In this document: positions 9,350-12,183 of the stretch, piece by piece
How positions within the stretch are numbered: the stretch's first letter is position 1
Layout of the letters: every line of letters starts with the position of its first letter
Assembly (NCBI GenBank): GCA_021775915.1
Contig: JAJFGW010000014.1
Coordinates: forward strand, 1-37,598
Reading direction: 5' to 3'
Length of the DNA: 37,598 nucleotides
DNA from: Alphaproteobacteria bacterium
GTDB lineage: Bacteria > Pseudomonadota > Alphaproteobacteria > Micavibrionales > Micavibrionaceae
Program-made: the position numbers and the translations under genes
Notes under the pieces: model-generated
Database searches by the model: none
What the model was told of the DNA's origin: nothing
Seen by the model: only the letters and a program-made list of their open reading frames with translations

Positions 9350-10279
9350 ATGACAGATTTTTCACAAAAACACCTGCTCGGTATTGATCAACTCTCGACC
9401 AGTGACATAGAGACCATTCTTGATCTGGCCGGTGATTATGCGGCCCGGCTTGAAGACACATCTTTTAAAACGGACACCCTTAACGGCAAAAGAGTCCTGT
9501 CGCTCTTTTTCGAGGATTCAACCCGCACCCGCACCTCTTTTGAAATGGCAGCAAAAAATGGCGGCGCCGACTGGGTTAATATTGATATTGAGCATAGCGC
9601 CGTTAAAAAAGGCGAAACCCTGCTTGATACCGTGACAACGCTTCAGGCCATCACCCGCCCCGCCGCTATCATCATGCGCCACAGCGAATATGGCGCGCCT
9701 TCCTTGATCGCAGGTCACGTCGATTGCCCGGTGATTAACGCCGGTGACGGAACCCGCGAGCACCCCACGCAAGCGCTGCTTGATGCGCTTACAATCTTGC
9801 AGCACAAAGAAACACTACGAGACCTGAATATTGCTATCTGCGGCGATGTGGCCCATAGCCGCGTTGCGAATTCAAATATGATCCTGCTAACCAAAATGGG
9901 TGCCAATGTCCGCATTATCGCGCCGGAAAACCTGATGCCAGAAAAATTCCCGGTCGACGGCATTGCTAAATTCAAAACCATGGAAGGCGGCCTGAAAGAC
10001 TGCGACATTATTATGATGTTGCGCCTGCAAAAAGAGCGCATGGCGGAAGGAACCATCACATCCGAAAATGCTTATTTTTCTGAATTCGGTCTAACGGCTG
10101 AAAAACTGGCACTGGCAAAGCCCGGTGCTCTTGTCATGCACCCCGGCCCAGTCAACCGTAATGTCGAAATTGCCGATGATATCACCGATAATCCGGCACG
10201 CAGCCTGATCCTGAAGCAAGTGGCAAACGGTGTCCCGACCCGCATGGCGGTGCTGGATTTACTGCTGGGAAATAAATGA
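9350..10279 (+). CDS. pyrB: Aspartate carbamoyltransferase catalytic subunit
   Basis: The enzyme joins carbamoyl phosphate and L-aspartate to give N-carbamoyl-aspartate, the committed step of pyrimidine synthesis, in the cytoplasm. The carbamoyl-phosphate site STRTRTSFE is at residues 57-65, HPTQALLD follows, and the C-terminal aspartate-domain motif MLRLQKER is present. Length (309) is normal. I start at ATG 9350; an in-frame GTG at 9341 is possible and neither has a strong ribosome site. The stop overlaps the plsY start in an ATGA. The companion pyrC (dihydroorotase), often found between pyrB and plsY in alphaproteobacteria, is absent here. Confidence 0.97.
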
Positions 10280-10866
10280 TAGAATTAACGGCTATAATTC
10301 TGGGTTATCTTCTGGGATCTATTCCTTTTGGACTCGTGCTCTCAAAAATCGCGGGCTATGGCGACATCCGTAAAATCGGCTCCGGCAATATCGGCGCGAC
10401 CAATGTGCTTCGTACCGGAAACAAGTTACTGGCGCTGGCGACCCTTATTCTCGACGGTGGCAAGGGCGCGGCAGCCGTATTGATTGCGGCTCATTTCGGC
10501 TCCTATGAATCTGCCATAGCCGCCGGCCTGTTCAGCATTATCGGCCATATGTTTCCGGTCTGGCTCAAATTCAAGGGCGGCAAAGGCGTTGCCACTACCG
10601 TTGGTATGCTGCTGGCACTGGCGCCAATGGTCGGACTTACCACCTGCATTATCTGGCTCACCACGGTTCTGATTTTCCGCTATTCCTCGCTGGCCGCGCT
10701 TATCGCCATTTTTGCCAGCCCGGCCCTTGCCAATTTTATTTACGGCGACGCCAACCTGACCGGCGTTTGCGCGATTATCACCCTGCTGGTCTGGATCAAG
10801 CACCGCGCCAATATCCGCCGTCTGATGAAAGGCGAAGAGCCGAAGATTGGGAAGAAGAAAGCGTAA
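10276..10866 (+). CDS. plsY: Glycerol-3-phosphate acyltransferase PlsY
   Basis: This inner-membrane enzyme moves an acyl group from acyl-phosphate to glycerol-3-phosphate, the first step in phospholipid synthesis. Family motifs are clear: [12 protein letters not shown], then [13 protein letters not shown] near residues 36-48, and [19 protein letters not shown]. Several membrane segments alternate with these loops. At 196 residues the length is typical. Its ATG overlaps the pyrB stop, so the two are probably translationally coupled. The lysine-rich end (KKKA) is cytoplasmic. Confidence 0.96.
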
Positions 10867-10875
10867 AAAGATTTA

Positions 10876-10967
10876 AAACGCAAAGTACGCTAAGTCGCGC
10901 AAAGTAGGATACAGCTATTGGCAAATAGCGCCGAAAAAACTTTGCGTCCTTAGCGTACTTTGCGTTT
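10876..10967. repeat. Large imperfect inverted repeat (about 29-nt arms) before dprA
   Basis: The left arm (10876-10905) and right arm (10939-10967) are reverse complements except for a small bulge near the middle. Each arm is built of degenerate CGCAAAG/CTTTGCG words (CGCAAAGT, CGCTAAGT). The 33-nt loop holds a second hairpin, GCTATT at 10914-10919 with AATAGC at 10924-10929. It fills most of the plsY-dprA gap. It could form a cruciform or a strong RNA hairpin, but no T run follows, so it is not a standard terminator. Confidence 0.85.
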
Positions 10968-10997
10968 AGAAATATTAATAAGAGCTCAATATAAAAA

Positions 10998-11027
10998 ATC
11001 TGTGTCTATCTGTGCCCATCTGTGGTT
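10998..11027 (+). repeat. Three ATCTGTG units at exact 10-nt period
   Basis: ATCTGTG starts at 10998, 11008 and 11018, giving a tandem array with a period close to one helical turn. It lies between the large inverted repeat and the dprA start, so it is in the dprA leader. An open frame runs through it into dprA, but the encoded residues do not look like DprA sequence. Confidence 0.85.
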
Positions 11028-11040
11028 AAAAAGAACCATC

Positions 11041-12183
11041 ATGGAAAAAGCACTACAGCAAAATACACCGTTAAGCGTGGAAGAAAAGCTCTCGTGGCTG
11101 CAGCTAATACGCACGGAAAATGTCGGCCCGATCACCTTTTTCAATTTTATGGATTATTACGGTTCTGCGGATAAGGCGCTGGAGGCAATCCCTGAGCTAG
11201 CCAAACGCGGCGGCCGCAAACGGCCCCTTAAAATTCCGCCGCGTAGCATGATCGAAAAAGAATATCGCGCCATTCAAAAACTGGGCGGTGACATTATTAC
11301 CGCTTGCGAACCGAATTACCCATTGGCGCTGTCCGCCTTGGAAGATGCGCCGCCTGTTATATCAATTTTCGGCAACCCCGAACTAATGCACAGCCCCTGC
11401 ATTGCCATTGTCGGAGCACGCAACGCTTCGCTCAATGGCCGCAAATTTGCTAAAAAAATAGCCACTGACCTTGGCAACACCGGGCAAGCAATTGCTTCGG
11501 GCCTCGCGCGTGGCATTGATACAGCCGCCCATGCCGGGTCACTACAAACTGGCACGATTGCCGTTTTTGCCGGCGGCATTGATGTCGTTTACCCGTCAGA
11601 AAATCAAAAACTTTACGATGAGATAAAGGAAAAAGGCCTGATCATCGCCGAAAACCCGTTGGGCACAGCCCCCCGGGCGCGCGATTTTCCGCGCCGCAAC
11701 CGTATTGTTTCCGGCTTGTCACAAGGCGTTATTGTTGTCGAGGCCACACTGCGCTCCGGCTCACTAATCACGGCGCGGCTTGCCGGTGAACAGGGACGCG
11801 ATGTTTACGCCGTACCCGGGCACCCGCTCGACCCGCGCGCCAGCGGGCCAAATGCCCTGATCCGTGACGGTGCCACACTTATCCGCAATGCCGAAGATGT
11901 GCTGGAAAACATAAATAATTTCACCGGAAACACTCTGGAAGATTCGGGCTTTAGTGCATTTGAAAGACAAGTTATCGCAAACGACGAGCCAGACGCACAA
12001 AGTTTTGAAGATGCCCGCGATATTGTTCTGGAAAACCTGTCCTATACAGCATCCGAAGTGAATGAACTCATCCGCAACACCGGCTTAAACACCGCTCTGG
12101 TACAGACCGTTTTGATGGAGCTGGAGCTTGCAGGCCGCCTTCAACGCCTGCCCGGCAACCGCGCCATGCTGGTGGATGAATAA
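11041..12183 (+). CDS. dprA: DNA-processing protein DprA
   Basis: DprA binds incoming single-stranded DNA and loads RecA during natural transformation; in non-competent bacteria its role is less clear. The Rossmann-like domain is complete: IAIVGARNAS, SGLARGIDTAAHAGSL, GTIAVFAGGIDVVYP, ENPLGTAP, FPRRNRIVSGLSQGVIVVEA and the SGSLITARLAGEQGRDVYAVPG segment. A winged-helix C-terminus (SYTASEVNELIRNTGLNTALVQTVLMELELAGRLQRLPG) follows, and an N-terminal helical domain precedes. The frame is open back to 10960, but that part runs through repeat DNA, so the start is set at ATG 11041 (MEKALQQ), giving 380 residues. The neighbours plsY and topA match common alphaproteobacterial order. Confidence 0.96.
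   Translation: MEKALQQNTPLSVEEKLSWLQLIRTENVGPITFFNFMDYYGSADKALEAIPELAKRGGRKRPLKIPPRSMIEKEYRAIQKLGGDIITACEPNYPLALSALEDAPPVISIFGNPELMHSPCIAIVGARNASLNGRKFAKKIATDLGNTGQAIASGLARGIDTAAHAGSLQTGTIAVFAGGIDVVYPSENQKLYDEIKEKGLIIAENPLGTAPRARDFPRRNRIVSGLSQGVIVVEATLRSGSLITARLAGEQGRDVYAVPGHPLDPRASGPNALIRDGATLIRNAEDVLENINNFTGNTLEDSGFSAFERQVIANDEPDAQSFEDARDIVLENLSYTASEVNELIRNTGLNTALVQTVLMELELAGRLQRLPGNRAMLVDE

Follow-up and report, generated by a model that had tools for sequence, protein, structure and literature searches.

The genes plsY and dprA are neighbours in the 37,598-nucleotide stretch of DNA analysed here (hereafter the window), and the gap between them contains a conspicuous repeat. A preliminary description of this DNA regarded the repeat as one composite, made of a large hairpin of CGCAAAG/CTTTGCG words followed by an array of ATCTGTG words, and proposed that it might be a mobile or otherwise spread non-coding element of unknown nature. 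The locus thus raises the question of what this repeat is, whether its two parts belong together, and what could have brought them there. We propose that it is probably a miniature, non-autonomous mobile element, mobilised most likely by GxxExxY nucleases that read helically phased units.

Two repeats in the plsY-dprA gap and copies of the hairpin in the genome

The upstream gene, plsY, encodes a G3P acyltransferase (positions 10276 to 10866, forward strand; Pfam PF02660, E = 1.6e-53). Nine nucleotides separate its stop codon (10866) from the hairpin. The left arm (10876 to 10905, forward strand) consists of TAAA followed by three CGCAAAG-type units, CGCAAAG-TA-CGCTAAG-TCG-CGCAAAG, spaced 9 and 10 nt apart. 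The right arm (10939 to 10967, reverse strand) reads CTTTGCG-TC-CTTAGCG-TA-CTTTGCG-TTT on the forward strand, with both spacings at 9 nt. Pairing is perfect over the outer 19 bp (10876-10894 with 10949-10967), and 9 more base pairs form beyond a small internal loop. The loop between the arms (10906 to 10938, forward strand) holds a nested hairpin of 6 bp at 10914-10929. The predicted folding energy of the hairpin is -55.7 kcal/mol, against a mean of -31.0 for shuffled sequences (z = -7.1). The stem is followed by TTT and then AG. A terminator was considered and rejected, the elements of this type lying inside operons and having no T run. The hairpin lies outside any 23S rRNA gene, its site being the plsY-dprA gap, and in an Rfam scan of positions 10700-11200 nothing reached the gathering threshold; where 70 bits were required, the best of the four matches scored 19.5, and three of the four were microRNA families.

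The second repeat starts 30 nt past the hairpin and extends from 10998 to 11027 on the reverse strand, where it reads AACCACAGAT-GGG-CACAGAT-AGA-CACAGAT. On the forward strand its ATCTGTG units begin at 10998, 11008 and 11018, at an exact period of 10 nt. The two-unit form of this pattern has two matches in the window and none in 100 shuffles of it. No mate arm for the array was seen within the gap, which ends at dprA (11041 to 12183, forward strand; Pfam PF02481, E = 5.5e-70). The inverted repeat, the nested hairpin and the three phased words were therefore all as first described.

The idea of a single composite did not hold when the source genome was searched. The exact pattern ATCTGTGNNNATCTGTG has its sole match in the 2.45-Mb assembly in the plsY-dprA gap (degenerate arrays would escape such a search), whereas pairs of CGCAAAG at most 20 nt apart gave 29 matches, against 1 and 2 for reversed-pattern controls, and these resolve into 11 inverted-arm sites, a few arms being degenerate or having two units. 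Nor do the two parts always occur together, since ATCTGTG arrays found elsewhere stand alone or form inverted pairs of their own. With 11 inverted arrays in this genome and relatives across phyla, the element is not unique to this locus.

An alignment of nine gene-less copies, the one between plsY and dprA included, spans about 96 nt and shows that they share asymmetric ends. The outer ends are of the TAAACGC / GCGTTTA type, and the two ends can be told apart by their consensus inner borders, CGCAAAG-TA and AAAAA-CTTTGCG. The loops of these nine short copies are variable, with a length of about 30-35 nt, and inspection of the nine-copy alignment by eye found no inner hairpin common to them; a tenth copy has a longer loop. 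All 11 elements lie between reading frames, which by inspection are co-directional in nine cases and convergent in two. The likely junctions include plsY-dprA, secD-secF, tkt-gap, murG-murC and trxB-LysR, the names other than plsY and dprA having been assigned by inspection.

The eleventh element, between tkt and gap (contig C29, 79821-80284), has a GxxExxY gene filling the space between its arms, at the place equivalent to the variable loop of the plsY-dprA copy. This gene begins immediately inward of the left array, and its stop codon falls within the first spacer of the right one. The encoded protein matches TIGR04256 (2.1e-39, 135 bits against a cut-off of 35) and PF13366 (PDDEXK_3, PD-(D/E)XK; 7.3e-38). 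The element before dprA is thus gene-less, in agreement with the preliminary description, but its nature is not wholly obscure, since the gene-carrying version encodes a GxxExxY nuclease. The gap itself is best explained, as judged from the sequences, by two insertions of one family, namely a complete gene-less hairpin with the word CGCAAAG and a lone arm, with the word CACAGAT, of another copy.

The GxxExxY gene and the arrays that flank it

GxxExxY is a single protein of about 125 amino acids. An AlphaFold2 model of the protein of locus L130, built from four sequences, reached a pLDDT of 88.4 and a pTM of 0.80. Its best structural match was SSO0001 (Z 10.1, 98 residues, 3.2 A), which we take to be a Cas4, followed by restriction enzymes and others with Z of about 8 and below; Foldseek also places lambda-type exonucleases high. 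No TnsA chain occurs among the fold matches listed, an absence that carries no weight, and a PDB sequence search with the GxxExxY protein of the source genome gave no match up to E = 1. Of 114 proteins, 109 to 114 conserve each of five residues, D79, E89, K91, Q103 and Y107 in L130 numbering. At the catalytic positions D is found in all 114, E in 109 with D in 2 more, and K in 111. We take this D...ExK...QxxxY set to be RecB/Cas4-like. By its modelled fold together with the D...(D/E)xK motif, GxxExxY belongs to the PD-(D/E)XK nuclease superfamily; the fold alone proves no function.

Six pairs of genes were used for dN/dS estimates; synonymous sites were saturated in five, and the remaining pair (L182/L188) gave a dN of 0.043 and a dS of 0.153. 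The gene is rare on plasmids, with matches to one query in 7 of 72,556 records, though it is common on chromosomes, and one query found it in none of 50,697 phage records. Among the viral contigs of IMG/VR one query yielded a single relative (L321) in 6 candidate stretches. Two papers containing the string 'GxxExxY' mention the protein in passing, one of them an algal virus paper that lists a relative.

The association of the gene with inverted arms was measured by a flank score, obtained from the highest-scoring inverted repeat without gaps that the 250 nt before the gene form with the 250 nt after it, and called positive at 14 or more. Flanks shifted outwards by 1 kb served as null, and the loci scored were the best-scoring GxxExxY loci, at most 30 per set. 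In the phylum of the source genome, 23 of 29 usable loci out of 30 were positive (null 1/26), nearly all from one family. The corresponding figures were 25 of 29 usable out of 30 (null 2/27) for genomes chosen by their ATCTGTG arrays, 20 of 25 usable out of 26 (null 0/23) for the relatives, and 24 of 28 usable out of 29 (null 2/27) for Bacteroidota not chosen by arrays. With dprA as control gene, 2/27 loci were positive (null 1/27). A further null with mispaired flanks was dropped on account of orthologous loci in opposite orientation in two sets (maxima 105 and 110).

The arms show self-identity peaks at lags 9 and 10. Their words differ by locus (CGCAAAG, CGCAGAG, CACAGAG, CACAGAT, CACGAAG, CACTAAG, CACGGAA and more), and their shape is similar throughout, often with an outer ACC or AAAC followed by CRCRRAG/CRCRRAT-type units every 9-10 nt. 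The earlier suggestion that a 10-nt period could place protein contacts on one face of the helix is compatible with this spacing of 9-10 nt. The ATCTGTG of the plsY-dprA gap is the reverse complement of CACAGAT, one of the words of these GxxExxY-flanking arms.

Among the 111 full-length genes with usable flanks (3 of 114 were excluded for short flanks), inverted-repeat arms accompany 91 of 108 with an intact catalytic site and none of the 3 in which it is broken (Fisher p = 0.005). Some of the 17 intact genes that lack a strong inverted repeat by score show visible weaker arrays. In every one of the four sets, higher protein identity goes with greater similarity of the arm words (Mantel r 0.25-0.59, p at most 0.001), and the correlation stays positive when pairs over 60% identity are removed (p 0.005-0.032). 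The 90 loci kept for this comparison had a score of at least 14 and a stop-free protein of at least 90 amino acids. The closest protein pair between sets, L222/L397 with 67% identity, has unlike arms. All p-values given here are indicative only, since the genomes share ancestry and relatedness inflates them. Because protein and word similarity go together in all four sets, the arms and the gene seem to travel as a unit.

Three loci (L151 at G000:C50:78544-78870, L335 in genome G016 and L340 in G023) carry a GxxExxY paralog that has lost the catalytic residues and has no arms. In the three genera concerned it adjoins genes that by inspection appear to encode succinate dehydrogenase, and it is likely a domesticated copy.

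The three-unit ATCTGTG pattern was found in at least 118 stretches of public genomes, which by record title come from Chloroflexi, Bacteroidetes, Spirochaetes, Cyanobacteria, Verrucomicrobia, Planctomycetes, Proteobacteria and others, so that the earlier statement that such strings recur in intergenic DNA of unrelated bacteria was borne out. A lenient scan of these loci detected 216 arrays, against 7 in reversed sequences. Where arrays neighbour each other within 500 nt, the CACAGAT...ATCTGTG orientation occurs 60 times, the opposite one 3 times and the same orientation 15 times. Lone arrays are frequent, 96 of the 216 having no inward mate within 500 nt. A GxxExxY match lies within 5 of the 118 listed loci, and at L061 and L130 the gene is placed between two inverted arrays of the CACAGAT/ATCTGTG word; the other paired arrays mostly enclose too little DNA for a gene. 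Full-length members of the family consist of an array arm, a GxxExxY gene and an inverted array arm, and the ORF-less copies share these ends without the gene, a relationship like that of MITEs to an insertion sequence.

Thirty array-bearing genomes were hand-picked over taxa from the 118 listed loci, and 29 of them encode GxxExxY; the figure is 25 of 26 when the four known gene-holders (L061, L096, L129 and L130) are set aside. The one genome without the gene is G314 (L137). The background frequency was 48 of 249 genomes in the phylum of the source genome, presumably Pseudomonadota (47 over the family cut-off), 74 of 148 in Bacteroidota (the phylum of G310, the genome of Flavobacterium glaciei with locus L122) and 15 of 38 among the relatives. 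CGCAAAG pairs in at least three copies were present in 16 of 48 GxxExxY-positive genomes against 1 of 201 negative ones, and within one family in 15 of 39 against 1 of 24. For at least one copy the numbers were 29 of 48 and 35 of 201. CGCAAAG arrays are present also where the GxxExxY examined in the genome has a different word.

Some loci are more complicated. In Scytonema (L132, 6860-7500) a broken GxxExxY fragment lies between CACAGAT/ATCTGTG arrays with extra tandem arms, and at L235 one element is apparently nested inside another of different word. Furthermore, four-helix-bundle genes of Bacteroidota (TIGR02436; L348-L377) also have inverted arrays, with a score of at least 14 at 22 of 30 loci (null 0/30). 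These arms have a period of 7/14 nt, against 9-10 nt for GxxExxY, and the protein is unrelated to GxxExxY. TIGR02436 is presumably the same protein family as the S23/four-helix protein of intervening sequences.

Presence and absence at orthologous sites

In 28 of 30 loci plsY and dprA are neighbours with the same orientation. Among the 27 relatives with this arrangement, 25 are without an element in the gap, and in several the stop codon of plsY and the start codon of dprA, by inspection, overlap by ATGA or nearly touch. In the two others, G007 has an independent inverted array with a CACGAAG-type word and G016 an apparent degenerate lone arm. This distribution fits the original suggestion of a mobile or otherwise spread non-coding element.

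Other junctions differ in the same manner. Between tkt and gap the GxxExxY element is common to G000 and G001 and the junction is bare in four relatives (G007-G010), while in G004 the site is occupied by an ORF-less hairpin of CACTAAG words, and the same genome has a GxxExxY element with this word at trpS (L341). At secD-secF and murG-murC elements are found in G000 and G004, with words that differ at least partly, and in none of the other relatives read. A presence/absence difference exists also at the trxB junction. G004 shows only a lone arm at the junction that precedes a maiA-like gene, and upstream of trpS G001 has a degenerate right arm alone (L255) where G000 has the full hairpin. Because of these two cases, lone arms look like leftovers, which suggests that they may arise by rearrangement or decay.

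The junction between trpD and trpC offers a series of such sites within one genus, that of G149 (L291-L320). Of 21 genomes read, 14 have an element, six are element-free and one was unreadable. These GxxExxY elements have words that differ between genomes, and some carry a broken or partial gene. The element sits at the overlap of the stop and start codons, and both codons are preserved. ATGA is found on both sides at some sites, which may be just the required stop and start codons. For 11 of the 14 loci (in three the start of trpC was not located) the arms could be compared, and own arm pairs scored 21.5 on average against 15.6 for re-paired arms (permutation p = 5e-5), close relatives among the 11 adding to the signal. 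The two arms have thus co-evolved at this one site.

Over the four sets, 73 of 90 elements with arms lie between co-directional genes, 8 between convergent and 9 between divergent ones (2 more being outside the count), and for 42 of 89 adjacent element ends the distance to a stop codon is -5 to 12 nt; these are raw counts in which orthologous sites recur.

Proposed mobilisation, alternatives and known systems

The mechanism that we propose starts from three features, namely words recurring once per helical turn, inverted arms and an adjacent nuclease gene that tracks the word, because of which a lining-up on the DNA, a pairing of the arms and a cut appear plausible. GxxExxY molecules would bind the 7-nt units and, as these recur about every helical turn, would form a row along one face of each arm. 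They would then pair the two inverted arms and cut or nick the DNA, and the element, gene-carrying or not, would be copied or moved, both in cis and in trans. The ORF-less copies would be mobilised in trans, as is thought for MITEs and REPINs. Insertion, or survival, may be favoured directly behind stop codons, where an arm starting with TAAA or TGAACC would do little harm. Lone arms would be decay products. Both the mobility and the chemistry outlined here are inferred from comparative data.

A wider proposal, which we regard as tentative, is that these elements make up a new superfamily of transposable elements, distributed over many bacterial phyla, and that a GxxExxY protein on its own reads their phased arrays and mobilises itself and ORF-less hairpins, with a recognition code that drifts as protein and word co-evolve. 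TIGR02436 with its 7-nt-period arrays would be a sister class, and inverted short-word arrays around one small ORF might be a general type accounting for many orphan intergenic repeats.

The strongest alternative, because most sites lie between co-directional genes, is an element acting at the RNA level in the manner of the 23S rRNA intervening sequences. The arms would pair in a polycistronic mRNA, RNase III would cut the stem, the hairpin would insulate or process the transcript and the ORF would be a passenger. The co-directional setting of 73 of 90 elements, the very stable stem and the parallel architecture of the four-helix genes of the intervening-sequence protein family all agree with it, as does the intervening sequence of C. 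burnetii, in which an ORF is bounded by complementary ends that RNase III cuts (PMC4990558). However, pairing does not require each arm to contain three copies of one 7-nt word with a period of 9-10 nt, lone arms are common (the 96 unmated arrays of 216), the three catalytically dead GxxExxY genes have no arms, and the words track the protein. We consider this alternative unlikely.

The repeats might also have existed beforehand and have been spread by another enzyme, the GxxExxY gene merely homing into the arrays or parasitising them. Genomes with arrays in which the GxxExxY copy examined has another word would fit such a history, and so would the one array-bearing genome of 30 without the gene and the 35 of 201 GxxExxY-negative genomes with at least one CGCAAAG pair. 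Against this stand the correlation between protein and word in all four sets, the neat nesting of the gene between the arms and the single negative genome of 201 with three or more CGCAAAG pairs, and we find homing quite unlikely. A static regulatory hairpin of plsY-dprA, be it a terminator, an attenuator or a protein operator, appears very unlikely: a strong hairpin does stand between a stop codon just before it and a start codon after it, but none was found in 25 of 27 orthologous gaps, the same element is present at ten other unrelated junctions (including murG-murC and secD-secF, named by inspection), and its stem is trailed by TTT, then AG. REP/REPIN repeats mobilised by a RAYT (TnpA-REP) transposase, which have a similar size range, hairpin shape, intergenic place and proposed trans-mobilised lifestyle (PMC3116915, PMC3733652), can be dismissed as highly improbable, since the stem foot carries neither GTAG nor CGTC as a tag in the nine aligned copies, the window hairpin included, the stem is 28 bp of repeated words against the 5-13 bp given there, and the nested gene encodes a PD-(D/E)XK nuclease and not a Y1 HUH transposase.

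The preferred reading, mobilisation by GxxExxY, links common and unexplained intergenic repeats in distant phyla with a single, uncharacterised family of nucleases, so that their nature could be addressed by assays of binding and cutting. Should mobility be confirmed, the elements would represent a class of miniature mobile DNA whose enzyme has a fold other than those of HUH, DDE and tyrosine/serine recombinases, and would explain the indels that split tight gene pairs such as plsY-dprA and trpD-trpC. The protein-word pairs constitute a natural series for reading a DNA-recognition code, and the trpD-trpC series in the genus of G149 is good material for word evolution. A literature search, with coverage that lacked bioRxiv preprints and included few subscription journals, found no description of the element, its arms or its ORF-less copies among the titles and abstracts listed, and an exact-string search for the repeat retrieved no paper. 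The family models TIGR04256 and PF13366, of which the gene of the full-length element is a member, name the protein only.

Several known systems resemble these elements in part. Tn7-like ends contain several protein-binding repeats each, inverted, with sites of about 22 bp, and TnsA is a PD-(D/E)XK nuclease. Our elements likewise have several repeats in inverted orientation at each end and a PD-(D/E)XK enzyme, but no TnsB/C partner was seen beside the single protein of about 125 amino acids, and the units are 9-10 bp apart. We know of no transposon that moves with a lone PD-(D/E)XK nuclease. MITEs of bacterial insertion sequences are also ORF-less and share terminal inverted repeats with a gene-carrying copy in the genome, as the elements of about 96 nt do here; in our case, however, the end is a phased array instead of a single terminal repeat, with no known transposase and no proved target-site duplication. 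The 23S rRNA intervening sequence of C. burnetii, described as a small ORF between complementary ends, termed selfish and excised by RNase III (PMC4990558), has the architecture in common with our elements and with the TIGR02436 genes of Bacteroidota between their inverted arrays, but it lies in rRNA, and its type of protein is unrelated to GxxExxY. The REPIN-RAYT system also has short, palindromic, ORF-less intergenic elements whose ends are inverted, and these ends flank the gene of the cognate enzyme as well (PMC3116915). REPs are defined by a GTAG or CGTC tetranucleotide at one stem end (PMC3733652), while here such a tag is missing, the enzyme is a PD-(D/E)XK nuclease, and tandem words 9-10 nt apart change between loci. 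Miniature mobile palindromes with a cognate enzyme are a known kind of element; if a nuclease alone mobilises those described here, they would be categorically new.
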